Below are positions 15,687 to 42,653 of a DNA stretch of 55,483 bases, piece after piece. The first letter of the stretch is position 1. Every line of letters starts with the position of its first letter. This DNA comes from Syncephalis plumigaleata (taxonomy: Eukaryota > Zoopagomycota > Zoopagomycetes > Zoopagales > Piptocephalidaceae), in contig JAIXMF010000047.1 in NCBI GenBank assembly GCA_025201365.1, positions 1 to 55,483 of the forward strand, written 5' to 3'. The position numbers and the translations under genes were made by a program. The notes beneath the pieces are model-generated. The model did not search any database, was not told the DNA's origin, and saw nothing but the letters and a program-made list of their open reading frames with translations.

Positions 15687-16109
15687 AAACAACAACGATG
15701 ATGATACTGCGAGTTATCATAATTATAATCAGACACAGGGCCTCACGCATAAGTCCAATGCTCATTTATTATTTCCCCCTTTCCTTCCCCCTATTCTTGC
15801 TCATTCTAATGCGGTCGTATAAACGTGTACAAATTAATTAACAATAAAGCTTATTATTTACTTTATCTTTGGATTATATTACTACGAATATAGATTGACA
15901 TATTTATTCAATAAATGATTGAATGCTCTTGTAGATATATTTCTTGGTCCAAGGAATAATGACTTGAATGACATGGACACTAAATGAGGGTCTTGCACCA
16001 ATCCATTCTTGACTTGAATACCTATAATATCTACTTGATGATGTCCTTGTCTTGTTCTTTAATCATGATGGATTAGTATGAGTATAATTATTGTGGATTA
16101 TTGCCTTAC
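15687..16109 (-). other. Terminal exon and last intron of micro-exon gene A, with 3' intergenic
   Basis: On the minus strand the last intron runs 16109-16057: donor GTAAGG, branch TACTAATC, acceptor AAAG. It opens onto a terminal exon starting at 16056. That exon has two overlapping long open frames (stops near 15912 and 15890), but the preceding micro-exon already supplies TAA at 16114-16112, so I read it as 3' UTR. Both the intron and at least 150 bases of the exon are nearly identical to 40639-40860 on the plus strand. The stretch 15687-15890 is the 3' end of the convergent PHD gene and intergenic sequence. Confidence 0.55.
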
Positions 16110-19100
16110 CATTACTCGAGATGCCTTAACGATTAACGCGTATTCCATTACAATTAATGCGGCATTTGTTATCGTCATACTGCCCACTTACAAGCTATCA
16201 TACAATCATACGCATATCGTATTTATATTGATTGTAATCAGTGTATAGTCTATGACAATCGAAAAGATAGCTTACAATCTGATGTATGTCAGCATAGGTG
16301 GAGAACATGTCACATTGCAATGAGTAATGCGTATACATTGATTGACATGTCCACTTACTTCCTATTATTATTATTATTACAATCCACATGGATCGAGTAG
16401 CACATTATCATTGAGTGATCATACACTGTCATCGGAAATACTAGCTTACTTGCTATTCGATATCATTGTACCGGATTGCATATCGCACATCGATTAGTCG
16501 TACATCATGCATTGTGGCTATGCTTTCTTTTGACTTACATCCTGTGTTGTGCCATTGTGAATGAGCCATGTTACATGTTGCAATCAATGAATCATTTATT
16601 GTAGTCGAGATGATAGCTTACTTTCTATTGCCCATGATCGTATATTAGTCAACTCGTATTGCATTTAGCATAGCATAGCTTGTCATCAATCCATTGACTT
16701 GCCTCCTGTTGTATGTGATTATGCATGGATTACATGTCGTATTGTCATTAGCACACGACATATCACGATCGAATCACTGGCTTGCCTTCTGTTAATCCGG
16801 TAATACGTGAATTGTATGCCACATATCATCATTAGCATGTCACCTATTGCAAGTAAAAGTGCTCACTCACATGCTATTATACATGAGTATACACGATCCA
16901 TATGGCGTACATTGCAATTAGCACGCCATAGATTGTCATTAGGAATGCCAACTTGCCTCCTGTCATTCACAATCATATGTGAATTGAATGTCGCAATGTA
17001 ATTAGCGTATTGCAAATTGCCATTGAAACGTCCACTTGCCCTTTATTCTACGTAATCAAATGTGAGTCGTATGTTGCCTCGTGATTAGTGCAATATAGAA
17101 TGCAACAGCACTATCGACTTACATCCTATCGTATAGAAGTGTACATGAATCGTGTCCACATTACAATGAGCACATCGTCTATACTGATCGGCATACTAGT
17201 TTACCTTCTGTTCAATAGTTATACATCAATCATATGACATGATGTTGTTGTTGTTAGCACGACATACACGGCAACAATAAATCAACTTACTTGCTATCAT
17301 ACGCAATCACATAGACATGGATCGTATTCCATACTGCAATTAGTGGAGAATACGAGCCACTAGAATGCTAGCCTACCTTCTTCTATCATACATGATCATG
17401 CATGGATCGTATGCCATACATTGCCATTAGTATGTCGTATACCGGGATAAGAATGCCTGCTTACCTCCTATCACGCATAATCATAGGTGAGTTGTATGTC
17501 ACATTTCAATCAATATGCCCACTTACAAACTATAGAATGTGGCCATACATGAAACATATACCATCATACTGCAATCAATCTACCATACGATAACATTCGA
17601 ATGTTCACTTACTGCCTATGACACGTAAACATATACGAATGGGATATCATACTGCAGTTAGCGACTATACTATTTCAATGAATAGGTTGACTTTCTTACT
17701 ATCTATCATCCATGATCATTTGTGAGTGTACACCACGTCATTACGATTATTAGTCCATCGTCAAATTGCCATTAGAATGCTAGCTTACGGCCTATTATCC
17801 ACACGTATATGAATGATATGCCAAATTACTATCAGCTACCAATATCGTATTACAACATGAATGCTGACTTACTCCCTGATGCGCATAATCATATGTGGAT
17901 TGTATGTCCCATTCCAGTTAATGTCTCGTATGTCGTAACAAGAATAATAAACTTACAAACTACCACATACGACCATACGTGAATCATGTGCCATAATGCA
18001 ATCAGTACACCGCATGTCGTGATTACAATGTCCACTTACAAGCTGTTATATGTAATCACACGCAAGTTGTTTACCACATTGCAATTAGATCGACGTATCA
18101 ATGCTAAGAAATGCTAGCTTACATCCTAGTATCCATGATCATATGGAAGTTGTATGTCACACTATGATTAATGCTTCATGTCTATAAGCTGACACGTTTA
18201 ACTCACAAGCTATCATGCAGTCATACGTTAATCATTTGTGATATTCCGATTAGTATACCGTAGATTGTAATCTTGACATCAACTTACATGTTGATTCGCT
18301 TCCTCCAACTAGGTCATACAATAGTGGATTGGCTTCACACGATGCTTGCCCGAATCAAACAATAAAACTTACTTCTTTCTGTACATGATTATATGTGGAT
18401 TACATATCCAATTGTAATGAGTGTATGATGCATCATCATTTGGATATCAACTTACTTTCTATAATAGCGATACAAGCACATATCGTATTTCGATTAGTAT
18501 ACCGTAGATTGTAATCGTGACATCAACTTACATGTTGATTCGCCTTCTCCAACTAGGGAATACAACAGTGGATTAGCTTCATAAGATGCTTGACCGAATC
18601 AAACGATGAAACTTACTTCTTCCTGTGCATGATTATATGTAGATTGTACATCCCATTGTAATGAGTGCATGATACTTCATCATTCGGGTATCAGCTTACA
18701 TGCTATAACAATAGCAATAATACAAGTATGTGTCACATTCCGATTAGCATACCGTAGATTGTAATCAAAATGATGACTTACTTCCTTTCATACATGATCA
18801 ACAGTCAATAGTATACCACAGTACAATTAATACGCTATGTAAATCGGCTGGAATGCTGATTTACCTCCTAACATTTGTAGTTTTATGTGGATCATTCAAT
18901 GACATTACCATTAGCGTATCACATCTTGTAATCAACATGTCAGCTTACAAACTATCAAATGTAAGCATATATGAATTATAGGACATCTTGCAATTAGTTC
19001 ATTCAGCGGTAACATTGAAAAATAACTTACATTCTATCATTTGTAATCACATATGGGTCGTATTCATTACGATTAACACATAGCATACTGGAATTATGAT

Positions 19101-21925
19101 ACAAACTTACTATCTGTCATTCATAATCATATAGAAGCCGTAGCATCACTATTAGTTCACGATAACTTGTAATCGATATGCTAACTTACTTTCTGTTATA
19201 TGTAATTATCAATGGTTTGTATGTCGTGTTACAATTAGTTCATCGTATGATGTAATTACTATTATGACTCACGAACTGATGCGCATAAGTGTAAGTGAAT
19301 TGCACACCGATTACGATTAGCTCATCGTATGGTGCAGCTGCTATTCTGACCTACCGCCTGGTTATGCATAAGCATAAGTGAGTTGCGTACCAATTACGAT
19401 TAGTCCATCGTATACGGTAGTCACTGTTTTGGCTTACTTCCTGTCACGTTCAAGCGTAAGTAATCGTAAACCAATTTACAATTAATTCATTGTGTGCTAT
19501 AATCACTATTCTGACCTACCGCCTGATGCGCATAGGCATAAGTGAATTATACACCAATTACGATTAGTTCACCGTATGTTGTAGTTACTATTATGACTCA
19601 CGATCTGATATGCATAAGCACAAGTAATTGTACACCAATTTACAATTAGCTCATTGTGTGCTATAATCACTATTCTGACCTACCGCCTGATATGCATAAG
19701 CGTAAGTAAATTGTACACCAGTTTACAATTAGTCCATGGTATGCTATAATTGCTATGCAAACTTACTTTCTGTTATATGTAGCCATAATTGAATTTACAC
19801 CAAGCTATAATTAGCTGATTGCATTCTGTAATTACTATTGACTTACATCCTGTTACATGTAATCATACGTGAATTGTATACCAATTTGCAGTTAGCCCAT
19901 CGTATGCTGTAGGTATTATTTCCACTTACCCACTGCCATTCATAATCATGCATGAATTTTACGATATAATTAGCTTATCGTATGCTGTAATCATTATGCT
20001 AACGTACATCCTATCATGTATAATCATACGTGAGTTTCACAATATAATTATCACATCACATGCTGAAATCTGTATGTTGACTTACACTCTATCATTCATA
20101 ACCATACGTGAATTGTATACCAATTTGCAGTTAGCCCATCGTATGCTGTAATCATTATGCTAACTTACCCACTGCCATTCATAATCATACATGAATTTTA
20201 AGATATAATTAGTACATCGCATGGTGAAATCTGTACGTTGACTTACAGGCTATCATTCATAATCATACGTGAATTTCACAATATAATTAGCACACCGTAT
20301 GCTGTAATCATTATGCTAACGTACATCCTATCATTCATAGTCATACGAAAATTGTATGCCACGTCACAATTAATACTTCATTCATTGTCATCATAATGCT
20401 AGCTTACTCTTTGCTGCACGTATTCATATACAAATCATGTGCCACACTCCTATTAGTACATTCTACGGTGATTATAATGTTGGCTTACTATCTGTTGTAC
20501 GTGATAGTACGTGGATTGAATTCCACACTCCAATTAATGTCTCGTATGCTGCAATCGGTATAATAACTTACGGCCTATTGTATTCCATAGTCATAGGTGA
20601 GCTACATTTTAGGATTGTAGTCCACGTGTTAACTTACCGTCTATGTCGTGTGATCATCATACACACACACGTATATGAATTGTATTTGCATTATGATTAT
20701 TGTGATTATTATTGGAGTGCTAGCTTACATCTTTCTGCATGTGTTGTTACAAGTCAATCATGTATCGTGCTACAATCAGCATACTGTATCCTATAATCAT
20801 CATAATGACTTGCCTCCTATTAATCGCAATAATAAATATATACTATGATTAGTATACCGTATACTGACACAAGAATGCCAACCTACAATCTATGTCGTGT
20901 AATCATCCATCATGATCCATGTTCCACATTTCGATTAACACATTACATATCACCATAGGAATGTCTAGTTACCCTCTGTTACATGGATGCATATGTGAAT
21001 CACCAATCAATTTGTAATTAACCGATCGCACATTGCAATGATGATCACTTACATACTATTACTCGTAATCATATGTGAATTGGATGCCATAGGGTAATGA
21101 GTACATCGACTAGTAAGACTGAAATGCTAACTTCTTACAATCTATTATGTATATATATATGTGTGTGATGCATTGTTATTAACATGTCATGCATTAGTAT
21201 GGAAATATCCACTTACATACTAGTGCAATCATATGCGAAGAGAATGATGATGATTGTTGTTGTTGTTAGTAGTACATTATACAGTAATGCTAGACTAGCA
21301 ACTTACATCCTGTTACAGGTCATCGTACACGTATCATGACATGTCAACTTGTAATGAGCACATCGTATGCTATGATCGAAATGATCACCTACATGCTGTC
21401 ATGTGTGTGTGTGTGTGGAATGACAAGTGAAGCAATTGTGCCATTGCAATTAGTATGACCTATACTGCAATCAGAATACCACCCACTTACAATCTATTAC
21501 ACGTCATCATCGGTGAATCGAATGCCACATTCCAACGAGTGCTCGCTTACCCACTAATGCATGCAATCATACGTGAATCAAATGGCACATTACAATGATA
21601 CTAGTAGCTTACGTGTTCCTATGCATGATAATCATACGGGAATCGATTGCCACATTCCAATGAGCGTATGGCATAGTATCATCATGATTCACAACTCACC
21701 TCCTATCATACGAGTATTGCAATTAGTACGTTGTACGTTTATTTAGACAGAATATCAACTTACGTCTGCTTCTATAATAGTGACATATGATTTCGATTTA
21801 CATTCCAGTCAACACGATAGATGTCATGCTCACTCGTTGTTTAACTCACCAGCTATGATTGACAGCATCATATGTGGCATCATCATCAGTATCGCAATCA
21901 ATGTCATACGATATAGACTTACCAT
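16110..21925 (-). repeat. Tandem array of ~82-base intron units separated by 3-base exons
   Basis: Each unit on the minus strand reads AG, a variable triplet, GTAAGT (or GTAAGC, GTGAGT, GTAGGT, GCAAGT), a mid-unit CTAAT, then the next AG. First base of each exon: 21925, 21852, 21771 (8 nt), 21702, 21618 (6), 21553, 21493, 21395, 21309, 21219, 21141, 21055, 20975, 20889, 20816, 20734 (6), 20640, 20574, 20491, 20413 (6), 20327, 20249, 20171, 20088, 20010, 19932, 19849, 19769, 19686, 19604, 19522, 19440, 19357, 19275, 19192, 19113, 19033, 18951, 18867, 18784, 18702, 18622 (6), 18552 (21), 18458, 18378 (6), 18308 (21), 18209, 18125, 18042, 17959, 17875, 17791, 17702, 17615, 17529, 17467, 17382 (6), 17293, 17207, 17125, 17042 (AA instead of AG), 16959, 16873, 16788, 16705, 16624, 16541, 16452, 16361, 16278, 16194, 16114 (5). 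Splice signals are conserved while triplets and spacers diverge. Confidence 0.8.
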
Positions 21926-22585
21926 CTATTGATTGTCATTAGAAAGACCATTAGATAGTAGTATTACGATTAGTATGTTGACTAGTATCGATGATAATGA
22001 TGATGATGATAGAAATACCAGTGGAATTTGATGATACGGATGTTGTAGCATTGACTATAAGCTGGCTATTGTTATTATTATTATCAGCAGATGATTCCAT
22101 GTTGATATTGTCCTAATGGAAGAGAAACAAACAAACAAACAAACAAACGAAATGGAGTAATGAGTATAGAATAGAATAAAAAGAGTAGACACACCTGATG
22201 ATGATGATGATAAGATGAATCGATTAGCATTGTTTATTTATAGGTGGAATAGTCGTAATACAACAATGCCATACAGAATAGACAAATCGATATCATCACA
22301 TATCCAATAATTGCTTCTGAATGATGCTGCCATGCATGAATGTCGCCTTTGTCCTAATGAACATCAAACAGACAGCAATTGTGCCATGTCAATCATATGG
22401 ATATTGAACAGTAGATACGCAATCGAATTGCTTACATCTAGACACATTTACCTAGTCTACAATGACTACTACTAGTATCTATCAGTATGATAGCACTATT
22501 CATTGATTGATTACAGATACTACATTTACTGATGCTAATCAAACAATAAAATATACACTGACTTGCCATTGTTAATGTCTGCCAT
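16112..22585 (-). CDS. Micro-exon gene A: charged protein encoded by ~70 single-codon-scale exons
   Basis: Unknown family. From exon 22112-22019 (31 codons plus 1 base; sequons NAT and NST) the gene proceeds through 72 tiny exons to TAA at 16114-16112. Phase is 1 after the 94-base exon; two 3-base exons and an 8-base exon at 21771-21764 bring it to 0, and the next 85 codons contain no stop. Part of the product reads EEHWIHDYIYRIEKDTAIQR, then RDPWSDWDKAIAEAF. It later has two copies of LE(K/E)ANQH and a Lys/Glu-rich end. A tentative 5' end (ATG 22585; exons 22585-22567, 22437-22436, 22353-22275, 22194-22193) adds a short hydrophobic stretch (AIIGYVMISICLFC) and keeps frame; a start at ATG 22100 is the alternative. 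Total is about 155 residues. The hydrophobic stretch followed by sequons suggests a signal-anchored or secreted product. Splicing is inferred, not observed. Confidence 0.65.
18282..18720 (-). repeat. Block duplication of three array units (244-base period)
   Basis: Two adjacent blocks, with 21-base exons at 18308-18288 and 18552-18532, share most of their sequence at a 244-base period. Each contains the 21-base exon, a 6-base exon and a 3-base exon. The encoded peptides differ slightly (LEEANQH against LEKANQH; GAA-GAA against AAA-GAA; CAT against AAA). Donors and acceptors are intact in both copies. This shows the array grows by multi-unit duplication that keeps the reading frame. Confidence 0.75.
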
Positions 22586-30516: not shown

Positions 30517-31550
30517 CAAATAATAACATATAATAAGAGTAGTAGCGGTGTTTCTTATTATTATTGCTACCTTACTATGTATATATGCAATCTACATACA
30601 CGATAGATACGATATATGCTACTATTATATTAAATATCCCCATTAAATCATTGATATCATCCATGAAATAGCATCATATTTAGGATGTAGAACTCTACCA
30701 TTATATCGCGTATAGTGTTCTAGTGCTCACACTTGATTGTTACTATTGTTTTGTTATGATAACAATACATGTCATAACTATTAGCTTATCTCTCACTCTT
30801 TCTTTCTCTCTCTTTTGTTATCTTATAGGAGATGAATGAATCATCATCATCATCATTTATCTTTTAACGTATTTTGATCGGATCTATTTTATCTTTTTAT
30901 TTTTATCATTTTCTCTCTCTTTATCTATCTGTCTGTCTCTCTGTCTCTGTCTGTCTGTGTCTGTCTGTTTCTATCCTACCCCGTGAACACGTATTACCTT
31001 TTTATCTATCCATCAATCAATCAATTAGCTCATACATATTATGACGGAATGCATCTAACGCAGTCATGGGACACTGATGCTCTGCAGTTCATCTGTTCAC
31101 ATGATCCATTTCCTGTTTTCTTAACGATCTTTGAAGGGTTTTGGTTGTTTAGCAGTAGTAGCCTATATGTTCTCTTTATTTCTTTCTTTCCTCTCTTTCT
31201 CTCTTGATCATCTATGCAGTGATATTATTTTAACTTTGGCCTTTGTTCATCGTTGATATTATTAGTCGTAGTAGATATATACATACATACTTACGTGTTA
31301 TTTTGTATTGCTTTTTCTTCTCTACCTTGTAGGTATTGTTGCTTCCTTACGTTGTTTATAGGATATTACGATTGCAACTATCTTTCATCACACTAAATCA
31401 TTAGGTCTTCTAAATTGCAGATAATTACTACTGCAACAACAGCAGCAGCAACAGCAGCAGCAACAACATAACTATCTCGTATACACGCCTTTTCTCCTCT
31501 ACTATTCGTTTAATTATCTTTAGATAGTTTAGTGTTAGTAGTGCGAGAAA

Positions 31551-31578
31551 GTGTGTGTGTGTGTGTGTGTGTGTGTGT
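31551..31578 (+). repeat. (GT)14 microsatellite in GATA-factor 5' leader
   Basis: Fourteen uninterrupted GT dinucleotides end 62 bases before the start codon of the GATA gene. It lies within the probable 5' UTR and could be length-variable. Confidence 0.9.
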
Positions 31579-31640
31579 ATCTCTGCTTATTTGAACTCCT
31601 TACTCACTTTCTAGCAATAGTTGTTATTCTATACAACACC

Positions 31641-34600
31641 ATGAATTCTCCAACACAACATATTCCTCATTCGTCGTCGTCAACAACAACAACCAATTTA
31701 ATGGCCATCGATGAATCTACAACCAACACTCGTAATGCCGAGTACTTGAATAACTTTCCCGTACAAGCATTACGACCTATACAACCTCCCATGATGCCTT
31801 TGATAAAACCATTGCCATCATCGACATCGTCAGCCGTATCCGCTACTCGTTGTGCCAATTGCGGCACTACATCCACACCACTTTGGCGACGGGCACCAAC
31901 GGGAGAGACTATTTGCAATGCATGTGGTAAGTATTTATATCATAATAGCTATCATATATATCGATATCATCATTGGTCTTTACCAGTAAAGAAACACTGT
32001 ACACTATCCCATCCATTATATGTATATACATACATACACACACATTACACTATGCTTATGACACGTTTATTGACCTATCAAATGATCATAATCTAATTCT
32101 AAGCATAGGCTAGTAATAGTATCATTAGTGTTAGTGTTGATAATGATGGTAATGATATAACTATTGGTCTAGTCTAGTCTAATCTATACAGCATGATATC
32201 AGTTATCATTCGTATTTCATTTACTATAATGATCTAGTTACTAATGACATGCTACTTTCTCTTTCTCTTTCTTGTATAGGTTTATATCAAAAAGCACGTA
32301 ATGCCACACGTCCATTGCATCTTAAACGGTCACCACGTCGTATTACACCGGATCGTGATATAGTCATGGATCTTGATGCCACTTCCGCTAACTCTGCATT
32401 ATCATCGTCATCATCGTCATCATCGTCATCGTCATCAGCAGCATTAGTCGCTAATGCTAAAACAATCACTACTGGTTCGGAACTATCGGTTGTTGATCGT
32501 GTAATTCATCATGATGTCGAAGAGATTGGTGGCGGGTGTAATAAACGACCAGCCGAGGATCCCGGCACCTGTCCAGGAGATGGTCATTGTGATGGTACGG
32601 GAGGTGCTGAAAGTTGCGCCGGTTGTCCCGCCTTCAATCAGCATCAAGTCAAGGCTACCATGACGTGTTCCAATTGTGGTACTAGTACAACACCATTATG
32701 GCGACGTGATCTTGGTGGTAATGTCATTTGTAATGCCTGCGGTCTCTATTACAAACTGCACGGCGTACATCGTCCTATGACTATGCGTCGTTCGGTCATT
32801 AAACGTCGTAAGCGTACCGGTCTTATGAATCAATCGCATCAGCAAGCATTGAATGTAGCCACACCAGCATCTAGAGGAGGAAATAATAGCCATATACCTA
32901 CTAATACCGCTATTAATATTACTAATACTCATGTTACCTCATCAACACATCATTATCAGCACCAGCAACATCAACATCAACATTCGTACTCACATCCAAT
33001 TGCAGTTGCACCTTTGCATAGTGCACCTTCCTCGAGAGATTCACCCGTGCTTATCCCGGCTATTAAAGCAATTTCCCTATCGCCTATAATGAACAATAAT
33101 GATCGTGATAACCATAGTCATCATAACCATAGTAATAGTCATAATAATAATAGTGATAGTAATAATGAAATGTTACATCGTTCGAAACAAATACGTCGAG
33201 TAGAAGTGGCCTATGATGATCATTTGCCGACGACGACGACGACGACGACGACAAGTCTACCATCATCGTCATCGATTCATATGGCGTCTATTAGGCAGTC
33301 TACACCGTCCGTCTCCTCTCCACCGTCGTCATTCTCTCCACTTCGTGTACCGGCCATTGAAGATTACATTGTTCCTAAGCGTACATTACTTCCATTGAAT
33401 CGACCAAGTCATAACACGGCAGATCATTATATGCAATCGCCCTCTTCATCTCAAATACCACCAATGACATCGCCTACCTTGCCATTGATGGAGGAACAAC
33501 AACAACAACAACGACAACATCAACAACATAATCAGCATCATTATATTAGTCAGCGTAGTCATAGTAATTACGATATAATAGCTCATGAACGTTCATCATC
33601 TACATCAACATCAACATCACATGCTTATTCAGCGCCACAATCCTCTAGCTTACGTCTGCCTCCGTTGGCTGCTCATTTGTCACATATGGCTGCCATGCCT
33701 ACACCGCCATTGGGTCCTTCATCCTCACCTTTTACACCGCCCACTTGTTCTTACGAACATGACTCGGCCATTCAATCACCGGAGAGTTTGGAAGAAGGAT
33801 CGAGTGTAATGGCAAATACAACCACAACTAGTGCTAATAGTTCTAATAGCAATACTGCTGCACCAATGTCACCTTCACCACCTCGTGGTTATTCGTCACT
33901 TGCTTCATTAGCCGCTGTTGCCGAATCAATGTCGCGTAGAATGTCGCCTGAATCTTCAATAACGTCATCATTATCGCCATTGCCGCCTATACATTCATAT
34001 AATAATAATGACAATGACGATAATGATGATGCTACTACTGTCCATCATTCGATGACATCAATACGTCCGCGTGTCAACTCTATCGCTTCATTGCTCAATA
34101 ATGGTAATCATAGTAGTCCACATGATAAACCTGCCAATATTACTACGACTACTAAAAGTCATACTGCTGCCATTGCTGCGGCTACAGTAGCTGCTGCTGC
34201 TGCTTCGATTAAAGAGCCATTGTCATCATCAGTATCAGCATCATCATCGATGGCCATGACTAATATCTCCAAATCTACTGCAACTACTGTTGTATCATCT
34301 ACACCTAGTATGACATCTACTACTACAACAGCAATGGATAATTCATTGCAGCAAACAACAAATTGGTCTGCCTTGGCATCTCCTGCTTCATCACCACCCT
34401 CACCCAATGAACCACCCGTATCATCATCTGCATCTGCATCATCAAGGATCGAATCACTTACCGCTACTGAAGCATTGGCAGCACTACGTAAAGCCAATCA
34501 ATCAGGTGGTCCCGGTAGTTCTGTGGCAGAGATGGGTTTAACAGCGGCAGCAGCAGGTCTAACACCGGACATGCTACGACAACATCGAAATGCACTACGA

Positions 34601-34744
34601 GAGGAGGTGACTCGTTTACAATCATTATTAGAGAAAACTAGTACAATGCTATCGGGTTTGGATCGATTATGCGAGGATAACAATCCAACTGCTGCTACTG
34701 CTAATACTACATCTTCAGAATTATTACCGGATAAATCGCGTTAA
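31641..34744 (+). CDS. Two-finger GATA transcription factor of the SreA/Urbs1/Fep1 type
   Basis: Probable repressor of siderophore and iron-uptake genes. Exons 31641-31926 and 32280-34744 give 916 residues. Finger 1 (Cys 71, 74, 92, 95) and finger 2 (about residues 223-250) are both C-x2-C-x17-C-x2-C with the TPLWRR core. Between them is the cysteine-rich block [20 protein letters not shown], the iron-sensing hallmark of this subfamily. Finger 2 is followed by the usual basic tail ([18 protein letters not shown]). The long C-terminal part is low complexity (Ser, His, Asn, Gln), and the last 70 residues form a coiled coil ([19 protein letters not shown]), as in Fep1-like proteins. The single 353-base intron interrupts finger 1 and is far longer than others in the window. 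Confidence 0.88.
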
Positions 34745-37046: not shown

Positions 37047-38452
37047 TTAATGATCCTTGATGATTGAGCTTCCACTATAATAATCTAATGCCTCTTTTAG
37101 ACTAGGCATTGATATGGCAGTGATAGTAGGATGTTGCTGTTGCTGTTGTTGAGCTACTGCTACAATGTCATCCGGTGATTGACACTCAACCCATGGCATT
37201 GCTATAGGTCGAGTGAATGGTACTGCACACAAATGATCATTGGCTCGTAATAATTGTGCAAGTATGCCATCGACATTCTTCTCCTTACTTAGACCGACAA
37301 TCCACAAGACTTGTTGTATTGATGATGATGATGATGATGGTGACGATGACGATGTAGTAATTTGATCGTCAACATATTGACGTAAAAGTCGTGCTGCATC
37401 AGGATTATGAGCACCATCCAATAGTAATAAGCGTGATGTCACTCCTGGTGATGACCATAAATGACGTGGTATACTAAGCCATTCAAGTCGCCATGGCCAG
37501 CGTGTAATCTCGACACCTTTCACTATTACGTCATCAGTGATACTGTGTAGCTTCTCCCTTAATCGATCTGGTATACGCTCGTTGTAATGATAACTATCCG
37601 ATGATGCCAGCGATTTTAGAGTGTCAACCGTTGAAATAGCCGTGGACACGTTGACTAACTGTGAATCGCCCACCAATCCCATATGAACATGTAGTGTGTC
37701 ATTCCCGGTACGAACAATTTGCGCATTAGCCGCTGTTGGTGAACCCTGCCAAGTGGCCGTTGTTATGCCACGTACCAGCTATTATACCATGGTTAATTAC
37801 TACATCGATGCTATAGAATAAACACAATAGGAATACTTACGTGGCAATTCATGTCATGCGCGATATTGACCAGTGTACGCTCTGCGGTCGTGTCTGATTG
37901 CTCGGCCAATATTACCGGTAGATAGGGTAGGAATATCCCTGCCTTCTCCGTAGCGATAGATGCTGTAGTATCACCAAGCAATCGTTGATGATCGAGGCCA
38001 ATCGACGTGACAACACAAGCGAGTTTACTTGTTCCATCCGAATGACCGGCATTGGTAGCGTCAAGACGTCCGCCTAGACCACACTCAATAACGGCCAAAT
38101 CTACTGCGGTCTCGCGAAAGATCAACCAGGCTATCGTGGTTTCTCGTTCGAATTCCGTGGGAGGTGCTTCACTAAGTGAACGAGCCACCATAGCGTCGAC
38201 TTTATTCCGCCAATACGTCCACGCGTCCAATGAAATGGCCGCGCCATTAATACGAATAGCGTCGCGTGGATGTAGGAAATGCGGAGACGAGAAGACACCT
38301 ACTTGTAGACCGGCCTGTTTATAGATAGACGCTAGGAATGCTGAAGTAGATCCTTTGCCATTAGTGCCGGCCACATGAATAAACGGAACGCTACGTTGTG
38401 GCTGGTCGAATAGTGCCAAAAGAACGCTAACCCGTTCCAAACCTAGTTCCAT
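37047..38452 (-). CDS. FOL3: Dihydrofolate synthase / folylpolyglutamate synthase
   Basis: Mur-ligase-family enzyme that adds glutamate to dihydropteroate or folates using ATP. Exons 38452-37841 and 37778-37047 give 447 residues. The P-loop is IHVAGTNGKGSTSAFL; the folate and Omega-loop region is GVFSSPHFLHPRDAIRING; the metal site is in VIECGLGGRLDATNA; and TSIGLDHQRLLGDT plus IATEKAGIF complete the central domain. The C-terminal domain has LLLDGAHNPDAARLL. The ATG at 38452 gives the family's typical beginning (ELGLERVSVLLALF); an in-frame ATG at 38536 would add a Ser-rich hydrophobic extension that could be a targeting sequence. Length and lack of insertions favour the FOL3 type. Confidence 0.88.
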
Positions 38453-38708
38453 TTCGAAGTTTACTAAAAATATAAATAACGCGGATAGAAAAGAAATAGA
38501 ATAGCTTGATGATGATGATGATGATGATGTAACCATAATTTATTGTAATATTTATATTGATAACATTGTCCCATCAAGACAATGCTTAAAGTAATAATTA
38601 CGTATATTTTCAAGTATATTGTTTATTATTGAAAGAATACAAAAAGAGTTAATCGAATTTACAGAGTAATGAGATAAATCTAAACGGCTTATTGCTTTAT
38701 ATTGCTAT

Positions 38709-39961: not shown

Positions 39962-40635
39962 ATGAAATTCTTTGCCATTATCGCTATTGCCGTCGCCGTT
40001 GTCGCTGTCGCCAGTCTGGTCGCCGTTGATGCTAGTCCCGCCTTGGTCCGTCGTGGTATGTCTGGCCGTGATCCTATCAATTGATATACTAATCGTAGCC
40101 TATTGTTTCATTGTCCACCGATGATTACCGATAGATCGTAAGTTCATGTATATCAAATGATTGTTTTGACGTACTACTCACACTATATATTTATTTTACA
40201 TATTGATATGTCAATAATAGCCGGTAAGCTAGTTTATTGACCATAACAAGTTCTATACTAACTGTAATACAAATCAAAACCACGTGTGATTACCGTTTTA
40301 AGTGGGCGTAAGTTACCAATGTGACCCCAACAAATATAAATATTTATTAATTACAATTTGGTGCATGACCCACGCATGCCTGTGAATGACAGTGTGTAAG
40401 TTAGCATTACTGTTGCAATGCTAATCGCTAATTTCGCTATGATACACGATCCACGTATGTTCCCGTATGATAAAAAGTAAGTTACCCTTATGAATATGCA
40501 ATGAATGAATGCGCTAATCACAATGTTACTTATGGTTTATGTGTGGCTGTTCATTACAGTGCGTAAGTAAACATTCCAACCGTCATCTATGTGACACTAA
40601 TCACACTACAATCCACATTAATTGAATGATAGTAA
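39962..40635 (+). CDS. Micro-exon gene B: short secreted peptide built from single-codon exons
   Basis: Exon 1 (39962-40055, 94 bases) encodes a signal peptide, MKFFAIIAIAVAVVAVASLV, then AVDASPALVRR, ending in phase 1. The following exons are ATC 40135-40137, CCG 40221-40223, TGGGC 40303-40307, TGT 40393-40395, TGC 40560-40562 and TAAGCA 40633-40638, each placed AG-exon-GTAAG(T/C). Joined, the mature end reads D-P-V-G-C-C followed by TAA. A further unit at 40474-40476 (AAA before GTAAGT) has AA where the acceptor AG should be; if used it adds Lys between the two Cys. The 5-base exon moves phase 1 to 0, as the 8-base exon does in gene A. The Arg-Arg is a possible Kex2 site releasing a tiny Cys-pair peptide; that is inference. 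Length is 37-38 residues. Confidence 0.6.
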
Positions 40636-40638
40636 GCA

Positions 40639-40860
40639 GTAAGTCATAATCCACAATAATCATAGCCATACTAATCCATTATGATTACAGGACAAGACAA
40701 GGACATCATCAAGTAGATATTATAGGTATTCAAGTCAAGAATGTATTGGTGCAAGACCCTCATTTAGTGCCCATGCCATTCAAGTCATTATTCCTTGGAC
40801 CAAGAAATATATCTACAAGATCATTTAATGATTTATTGAATAAATATGTGCTATTTTGAC
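40639..40860 (+). other. Last intron and terminal exon of micro-exon gene B
   Basis: An intron from 40639 (GTAAGT, branch ATACTAATC, acceptor TACAG) leads to a terminal exon at 40691. The exon matches the gene A terminal exon (16056 downwards, minus strand) with about seven differences in 155 bases, and the intron is also clearly homologous. It follows the TAA codon, so it is probably 3' UTR, although two long open frames run through it. Confidence 0.6.
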
Positions 40861-41028: not shown

Positions 41029-42653
41029 CTAAGCGTTAAGAGAATCAGTGGTGGGTGAATGTTGTCGTTGTTGTTGCTCGTCATCATCCTGAATGATATC
41101 ATCTGTACGTGGATAAGTGACACCATCACCTAGACTATTGGAGATGGGCACAAGCCATAACCATGGATTGTCACCCATAATCGACATCCAATTACGTAGG
41201 AGACCTTGATGCCACGGATTACGTAGATCTTCCTCGTCACGTCGAGCAGCCTCAGTCATATCGGGATCCTCTTCTAACACGGCATTGGAACTACTCGCCA
41301 TACGTCGTCGTAACACACGTTCACGTAGTTTCAAACGTCGTTGTGCCGTCTGCCGTTTCATGTACTCTAACGTCGTTTGATTCGTGAACAATTGAAACGC
41401 GTGCATACCCGTAAATGGTACAAGCATTAGTGACCATATACCGGCCAATACGGCAAGGGCAACCCACAAACCATTGATCTCACTTGATTCCTATTCATTA
41501 CACAAAGACAAATCATGGTTACATCATCTGAATCGACTGTATTGTCTCACTGATAGAGTGACTCACCTTGGGATCATCCATGTAGAGTGCCAACATAATA
41601 GCAATGGTAATCGACACGTAAAGGGTAAGCATCGATACGTAGAATAGGAATAGGAAGAATAGCTTATGATTACCATAGCCTACACAACCCACAACCCATG
41701 GACAATGATGATCCATGCGTAGAACACATTCATTACATTGTGAGCAATGATGTGCTCGATCCGGTTTAACACGCTGACAAATGTGACAGTAGCGTATACG
41801 TTTGTTACCCGTGTGATTAGTACTAGTCACAGCATGATCATTCAAAGAAGAAGGTGTATTCGATGACTGATACAATTCATTATTATGATTATGCTGTTGA
41901 TGTTGATGTTGTTGCTGTTGCTGTTGTTGTTGAATATTATCTGTAGTCAATGCTGGTTCATTCATATGAGGTGTCGTCTTCACAGTATGTTCATCATGCT
42001 CATTCAAATGACTAGTAGATGCATCATTGACAATGGAAGCAGTTGGCATACCCAATGATGATGGTGTCAACAATGAATGAGGGTTTGTCGAATAGGTCAG
42101 TGTTTGTTCACTGCCTGTTCTACTAGAACCATCATTGTTAATCATATTTGGTAAATGTTCAGCAGTAGTGATTATACCCGTTTCATGCGGTGTTGCCAAT
42201 GCTGAGTCTGACGGTGTTGTTTCTGGAGCAGTGGTGTAAGGCGTGGTGGCGGTAGTGGATACAAGTGGATAGCCCGCTGCTTCATTAGTGTCACCAGATA
42301 CCAATGGCACCTCCTCCGAAACAGACGGCAATGAAGTCATCTATCCATCATCAATATCGAGGTATAGCATAATAGTCACGTTACTTATAGCTTACCTCGC
42401 AATGAATATCACTCGAAAATCCCGGTTGACGTAATATTAATCGTGTATACGTGTAGACTACCAACAATAGTAGAATGTGATAGACTACCAGTAATAGGAT
42501 AGCACCCACTCTATTCCGATGAATGTAGTAGCCCAGCTGTACTTGAACAACAAACACATAATAACTCAATGCCAATAAACCGTATATCATTAACAAAGGC
42601 GTATATGATACGGGTGTAAGCCAACGCTCTCGTGCTGGTCGTAATAATCGCAT
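41029..42653 (-). CDS. DHHC-type protein S-palmitoyltransferase (Pfa3/ZDHHC2-like)
   Basis: Transfers palmitate to cysteines of membrane-associated proteins. Exons 42653-42396, 42340-41567 and 41490-41029 give 497 residues. Topology: two N-terminal membrane segments (SYTPLLMIYGLLALSYYVFV; GAILLLVVYHILLLLVVYTY), the cytosolic zinc-binding DHHC domain, then two more membrane segments. The domain is complete (CHICQRVKPDRAHHCSQC, then CVLRMDHHCPWVVGCVGYGN), with the catalytic Cys in DHHC. The TTxE motif is present (NQTTLEYM). Unusually, about 150 residues of Ser/Thr/Gln-rich sequence, including a Gln/His run, are inserted between membrane segment 2 and the DHHC domain. An Erf4-like gene sits 5 kb away; partnership is only a suggestion. 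Confidence 0.88.

Follow-up and report, generated by a model that had tools for sequence, protein, structure and literature searches.

Gene W, on the minus strand of contig C326 of the 32.6-Mb Syncephalis plumigaleata assembly (55,483 nucleotides, hereafter the window), very probably belongs to a large family of spliceosomal genes whose variable part is split almost codon by codon into exons of three bases. A dynamic-programming chain parser, which scored donor, branch and acceptor sites and ignored the reading frame, resolved positions 22110-16050 of the minus strand into 72 chained introns of about 80 nucleotides (nt) and 61 three-base exons, bearing out the claim of an earlier sequence-only reading that about 70 consecutive micro-exons are arrayed here. 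The same parser found no three-base exons on the antisense strand of the array and two or fewer in any of 100 first-order Markov resamples of it. Among 16 other 6-kb stretches, parsed on both strands, 14 were without three-base exons, and the remaining two overlapped either W or a second array in the window.

Structure and reading frame of the window gene

W spans 22100-16031 on the minus strand, from the ATG to a TAG in the last exon. The first exon encodes an Asn-rich start, MESSADNNNNNSQ..., in which no obvious signal peptide was seen by eye. The array introns carry GTAAGT-like or GCAAGT donors, CTAAT-like branch sites and mostly YAG acceptors (Y, pyrimidine). For two exons, returned by the parser as 1 nt and 11 nt, the first AG was manually chosen as the acceptor, which lengthened them to 6 nt and 21 nt. 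With these two acceptors moved, the exon counts claimed previously (61 of 3 nt, six of 6 nt, two of 21 nt, one of 8 nt and one of 5 nt) were reproduced, and one further 8-base exon, AATAAAGG at 17047-17040, turned out to be missing from that list.

The AATAAAGG exon determines how the protein ends. The frame had been described as open to a TAA in the penultimate exon; this holds only if AATAAAGG is skipped, in which case the predicted product has 117 residues. With the exon included, the open frame continues to the TAG of the last exon and encodes 129 residues, so that the product of about 155 residues expected earlier was obtained in neither case. In all seven aligned W-type copies (7/7), the exon was readable as 8 nt with the same upstream TAG and a GC or GT donor; its version in locus L048 is AACAAGGG. 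The penultimate exon varies among these copies, reading GAATG in L039 and L010 and AATG in L048.

The triplets as probable codons

Across the family, stop triplets were absent from the 660 three-base exons found in 35 loci by the frame-blind parse (0/660), against 19.4 expected and a minimum of 7 over 5,000 column shuffles. The same result was obtained with near copies excluded (0/522 in 29 loci; 13.3 expected, shuffle minimum 3), with near copies and W excluded (0/461; 10.7 expected, shuffle minimum 1) and in an earlier parse (0/638 in 37 loci; 17.7 expected). TAA and TGA alone numbered 0 in the set without near copies, where about 7.9 were expected. Intron 3-mers at fixed offsets were rejected as a null for the stop rate, as the introns share sequence and the rates ranged from 1% to 41%. 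A comparison of codon usage with ordinary genes was likewise set aside; the Spearman coefficient of 0.33, compared to 0.19 for intron 3-mers, was of little informative value, and four of the nine stretches taken as ordinary had been read in the wrong frame. Additionally, TAC (0), CAC (2) and TTC (1) are nearly missing from the 660 exons when compared to TAT (12), CAT (27) and TTT (16), for no apparent splicing reason.

Collinear units of paralogous signal-peptide genes encoded the same residue in 29 of 30 pairs containing Cys, compared to 31 of 220 other pairs. The pairs are not independent; those with Cys come from 24 units in 11 genes. Excluded from the comparison were the W type, the three leading units of each gene, one L009 copy and two pairs of nearly identical genes. 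The pattern is what a disulfide scaffold with changing loops would produce, and it is hard to explain without translation.

The splice sites also seem to constrain the triplets. NYA codons occurred 18 times in the exons and NRA codons (R, purine) 92 times, as opposed to 438 and 261 times in ten ordinary stop-free stretches of the window that served as open reading frame control (p=2e-20). CAG was found 0 times against 46 for AAG and GAG together, compared to 39 and 100 in the control stretches. NYA codons would be disfavoured because NYA followed by the G of the donor creates a competing YAG acceptor at the junction, and the avoidance of YAG fits, as expected, the requirement that the acceptor 3 nt upstream be chosen.

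Conservation was compared by column in the last 17 units of the seven W-type copies. Donor and acceptor columns were variable in 7 of 130 cases and spacer columns in 185 of 1140 (p=4e-4), in agreement with the earlier statement that splice sites are kept relative to spacers; among branch columns 6 of 70 were variable, and at the acceptor -3 position 2 of 17. The companion statement that the triplets have diverged was correct for distant paralogues and for neighbouring units, where they differ far more than the introns, and failed for close copies, in which 3 of 49 exon columns vary.

Further, predicted proteins from public annotation could be threaded through the triplets of their own loci. 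P0121 (BDF22DRAFT_685685) threaded exactly from C362:262196 downwards in 42 exons, 39 of them of 3 nt, and still did so when introns were limited to 200 nt. P0125 (BDF22DRAFT_655023), a relative of W, threaded onto C340 in 44 exons, 29 of them of 3 nt. Its first eleven internal exons reproduce the series in W except that CAT is absent, the 8-nt exon AAGCAGAC of W is also present, and it ends with EQDKDIIK at the TAG of its own locus that corresponds to the TAG in the last exon of W. Shuffled variable parts never threaded (0/60 for the first 72 residues of P0121 and 0/60 for the first 60 residues of P0125). A third protein, P0122, could also be threaded, with six exons of 3 nt, its tail being less convincing. 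In this way the public models, themselves predictions, reach the same kind of architecture. Stop avoidance, Cys conservation, YAG avoidance and public protein threading support the earlier proposal that the spliceosome would remove about 70 introns to join the codons.

The family and the alternatives to its proposed splicing

A strict pattern, TAGNNNGTAAGT...CTAAT, occurs 1,060 times in the genome, compared to 16 times for a reversed-pattern control, with some units counted twice. Since this pattern captures only 174 of the 638 three-base exons in parsed loci, a rough extrapolation puts the number of single-codon exons in the genome at three to four thousand. The first exon of W has 27 matches in the genome (its own included; 0 for the control). 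The signal-peptide first exon of the main type matches at least 149 places (150 scored of 169 candidates, one being a C-terminal match), a number that includes haplotype copies and at its weak end may contain unrelated secreted proteins. With the 3' untranslated query, all 40 places scored (of 180 candidates) matched, including 15959-16021 and 40726-40788 in the window. Nine of 12 main-type first-exon loci that were fetched lead into a chain of at least four introns, and 23 of 30 loci fetched via the 3' sequence have an array upstream. In the earlier parse of 37 loci, a length of exactly 3 nt was found for 638 of the 756 internal exons, and the introns had a median length of 80 nt (5-95% range 70-84).

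Public protein searches gave hits in S. plumigaleata only, both for the signal-peptide type (4 hits of 7 candidates) and for the W type (4 hits of 13 candidates). A Pfam scan of five public family proteins (P0121, P0122, P0124, P0125 and P0126) yielded nothing above the curated cut-off, and an Rfam scan of the window found no family.

The typical main-type start, MKFSAVIAIAVAVVALTSLVAVEA (MKFSAV.IAIAVAVVA...), is signal-peptide-like by eye and is followed by a short segment ending in RR. The first exon, about 94 nt long, leaves the frame in phase 1, exons of, for example, 3, 9 and 5 nt lead to phase 0, runs of single codons follow, and the last coding exon usually ends with TAAGCA or TAAGCG. 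Predicted products of the form C...CC...C with varying spacing were found for L019, L020, L021 and L058, and C...CC for L013; other products are rich in His and Gly (L061, L070), rich in Pro (L057) or coiled-coil-like (W and the 3' end of L026). L026 (C329) and L051 (C327) have very different codon arrays and a common last coding exon, AATCAGCCCTAAGCA, as if arrays had been swapped between fixed ends.

We propose that the pre-mRNA would be processed by intron definition, with each intron of about 80 nt recognized as a unit via its strong donor, CTAAT-like branch site and YAG acceptor. Because each of these short, strong and similar introns would be recognized as a unit, exon length would become irrelevant, and splicing would string the codons together in sequence, flanked by an ordinary first exon and the common 3' untranslated exon. 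In the main type, the first exon would encode the signal-peptide-like start and a short pro-segment whose terminal RR is, by eye, a likely Kex2-type site. About three phase-1 introns, usually with a 5-nt exon, would shift the frame to phase 0, after which a short mature peptide, often C...CC...C, would be encoded by the single-codon exons. The W subfamily would lack the signal peptide and combine the Asn-rich start with a charged, coiled-coil-like chain of one of the two lengths given above. We infer splicing in the cell, secretion and Kex2-like processing from these sequence features.

In a set of 28 parsed genes (without L017, L053 and L055; L061 and L070 are close copies), 15 are open from the ATG to the last exons. 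Several observations weigh against our reading. Two of the 15 open genes, L013 and L065, stop in a phase other than that of the family TAA. The first exon is broken in three genes (L009, L012, L054), no stop was found in three others (L064, L067, L071), the stop of L056 lies three exons before the end, and six genes (L015, L018, L060, L069, L010 and W) contain an internal stop in the frame-blind parse, which in W vanishes only with manual selection of the first AG as acceptor. Three of the 12 first-exon loci (L062, L063, L066) showed no array in the parse, and of the seven 3'-sequence loci without an upstream array, five have only one or two introns and two were left unplaced by the script. 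The avoidance of TAG is partly due to that of YAG, a looser set obtained by regular expression contains two TAA among 460 triplets (14.3 stops expected), and the difference between exon and spacer columns of the W type is only suggestive (p=0.07). As to the public proteins, six introns of P0121 are of double length (147-165 nt) and pass over units, and its last exon reads through the donor used in the parse, resulting in a differing C terminus. For P0125, threading involved nine introns of more than 140 nt, the longest being 488 nt, and its first 60 residues fail to thread when introns are limited to 200 nt.

Two groups of these loci deserve a separate remark. L062, L063 and L066 have main-type first exons and no array, and could be relatives without micro-exons. 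In L009, L012 and L054 the array triplets are stop-free despite the frame-breaking first exons; these loci are probably dead genes or assembly errors.

Introns of one gene have a mean identity of 72.5-74.3% at distances of 1 to 12 units. In the 46 pairs of introns within genes that are at least 90% identical, the flanking codons still differ in most cases, namely 69% on the upstream side (n=42) and 63% on the downstream side (n=40). Between genes, near copies with an intron divergence of 0.013, many of them haplotype-like, differ in 1 of 33 codons, and the share of differing codons is 43% (n=117) at a divergence of 0.085 and 84% (n=76) at 0.164; for signal-peptide genes at an intron divergence of 0.086, 53% of 85 codons differ, and five of those changes are synonymous. 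Hypermutation was rejected as the only explanation for codon divergence, since codons are preserved in close copies. Either codons are selected for change, or introns are homogenized or spread independently of the codons, and the data fit both.

Instead of duplication of codon and intron together, near-identical introns may have been inserted into, or homogenized across, an existing coding sequence at each codon. The different codons beside nearly identical introns would be explained in this way, and we give this origin a chance only somewhat short of even. Fast selection on codons would yield the same picture, however, and some arrays seem to have been duplicated with their codons, as exemplified by GCC AAG occurring three times in L014. 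Introners are families of near-identical spliceosomal introns dispersed in unrelated genes. Within the window, in contrast, the array introns were found in the two arrays only (73 nhmmer matches inside the arrays and 0 elsewhere, using a profile derived from 544 array introns), and with no match outside the arrays the window gives no sign of dispersed introners.

A second alternative accepts the splicing and holds that single-codon exons are commonly skipped or included, so that each gene would give rise to a cloud of in-frame peptides that are one or a few residues apart. Any 3-nt exon can be skipped without a frameshift, and the long introns of P0121 and P0125, the absence from the latter of the CAT codon of W and the two open C termini that depend on AATAAAGG all point in this direction. 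On the other hand, the apparent skips may be annotation errors or threading faults, and strong splice sites together with the avoidance of codons that create a competing AG suggest selection for precise splicing. We regard frequent skipping as a real but rather doubtful prospect.

Alternatively, the array could be a single long intron, removed in one step or by recursive splicing, whose triplets never enter the mRNA. Stepwise ratcheting at internal sites is a known removal route for long introns, and splice sites that are better kept than spacers are predicted by this explanation as well. It leaves unexplained, however, the avoidance of stops (0/660), the conservation specific to Cys (29/30 as against 31/220) and the threading of public proteins through the triplets, and we consider it very improbable. 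A neutral tandem satellite with chance splice-like motifs would account for the tandem period of about 82 bases, which is real, and has next to no credibility given donor and acceptor columns that vary three times less often than spacers, the lack of stop triplets and the occurrence of the units in many genes with similar first exons and 3' ends.

If single-codon splicing does operate, the array might, tentatively, be viewed as a machine for diversity at the level of codons. Host-facing peptides of this mycoparasite would acquire, lose and swap single residues through recombination between near-identical introns with the frame kept, codons could also be skipped by splicing, and the rule against YAG at junctions would limit the codons allowed.

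Genomic context, comparison with known systems and significance

Features of W and of the second, shorter family member in the window.
Feature	Position	Strand	Remarks
W, first coding exon	22019..22100	-	82 nt; ATG at 22100; ends in phase 1
W, array of 71 small internal exons	16192..21925	-	61 of 3 nt, six of 6 nt, two of 21 nt, two of 8 nt; frame-blind parse
W, 8-nt exon AAGCAGAC	21764..21771	-	phase 1 to phase 0; later 3-nt exons are whole codons
W, 21-nt exon	18532..18552	-	encodes LEKANQH; from parse
W, 21-nt exon	18288..18308	-	encodes LEEANQH; parser gave 11-nt version from inner AG
W, 8-nt exon AATAAAGG	17040..17047	-	inclusion or skipping sets C-terminal frame
W, penultimate exon TAATG	16110..16114	-	supplies TAA stop if exon at 17047-17040 is skipped
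W, last exon, start AACAAGACAAGG...	16031..16056	-	AAAG acceptor in W; TAG at 16033-16031; remainder 3' untranslated
3' untranslated sequence common to family members	15959..16021	-	98% identity to 63-base query
Second member, first exon	39962..40055	+	signal-peptide-like MKFFAIIAIAVAVVAVASLVAVDA plus SPALVRR
Second member, micro-exons ATC, CCG, TGGGC, TGT, TGC, TAAGCA	40135..40638	+	from parse

The second member (39962-40790, plus strand) is of the signal-peptide type, with a predicted product of 37 residues ending in ...RRDPVGCC; one of its units, near 40470, seems to have lost its acceptor. Two ordinary genes near the arrays were recognized by eye, one for a GATA-type zinc-finger protein with a low-complexity tail (31542-34744, plus strand) and one for a DHHC-type palmitoyltransferase (41029-42340, minus strand). 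An origin of the contig from a fungal host was dropped, as the best matches of the folate-pathway protein encoded at 37047-38539 come from three Syncephalis species (96% identity to S. plumigaleata, 65% to S. pseudoplumigaleata and 58% to S. fuscata). Contig C318 holds a copy of the W array at about 746500-752545, in which the 3' part and flank are 95-96% identical and other aligned parts 79-82%. Given these mixed identities, C326 could represent either a diverged haplotype of C318 or a segmental copy of it.

Recursive splice sites and stwintrons are cases in which acceptor and donor abut or nest inside a long intron and add no exon, whereas a codon-like triplet lies between acceptor and donor in the Syncephalis arrays. 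In searches of the open-licence literature of PubMed Central, some of them directed at Syncephalis or at bicycle genes, we did not find serial single-codon exons; micro-exon families of schistosomes and aphids did come up. The main texts of PMC10386755 and PMC6784888, both of which name Syncephalis, contain no word starting with intron or exon, and S. plumigaleata is named in PMC7865070. A single micro-exon of 3 nt is spliced, for example, in Drosophila homothorax (PMC7392893); there it is one such exon per gene, as opposed to dozens in series in Syncephalis.

The micro-exon genes (MEGs) of Schistosoma encode variable secreted parasite proteins from many very short exons, mostly multiples of three (PMC10526429). 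These exons measure 6-81 bp (3-81 in the abstract), the majority 15 bp, with 10-20 per gene and introns of 0.1-5 kbp (PMC10526429). The Syncephalis genes resemble them as micro-exon families encoding variable proteins of a parasite. They differ in exon size, which is exactly 3 nt for most internal exons (61 in W) and not 15 bp, and in having mutually alike introns of about 80 nt where those of MEGs reach up to 5 kbp. As regards secretion, the signal-peptide-like start of the main type was judged by eye only, and W is without such a start.

The bicycle genes of aphids form a large family of putative effectors with tiny exons, in which gene structure is kept while the protein has diverged (PMC9168663). 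They average about 17 exons per gene, with more than 100 micro-exons in megacycle, and their internal exons are nearly all in phase 2 (PMC9168663). In cleanly parsing Syncephalis genes, by contrast, the first introns are in phase 1 and are followed by single codons in phase 0. Bicycle proteins carry CYC motifs, whereas the Syncephalis products show C...CC...C, by eye, and not paired CYC. The likeness to bicycle genes lies in a large family with many tiny exons, and no sequence relation is suggested. Since the defining features of MEG and bicycle genes that we tested are absent, we rate the architecture as new in kind, although MEG- and bicycle-like in spirit.

PMC6784888 counts a Syncephalis species among the mycoparasites. 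This lifestyle of the genus and the likeness to MEG and bicycle genes suggest, by analogy, a role of the family at the host interface. If the architecture is real, dozens of exons that are too small to be recognized by exon definition can be joined by a spliceosome within a single transcript, so that the minimum size of an exon can be tested directly, and a natural system for studying splicing order and fidelity is at hand. As an exon would then equal a codon, recombination between introns could edit the protein residue by residue without a frameshift. Our results suggest that standard annotation probably misses or garbles part of such a secretome, and the fungus would represent a third, apparently independent lineage in which micro-exons are linked to fast-changing secreted proteins of a parasite.

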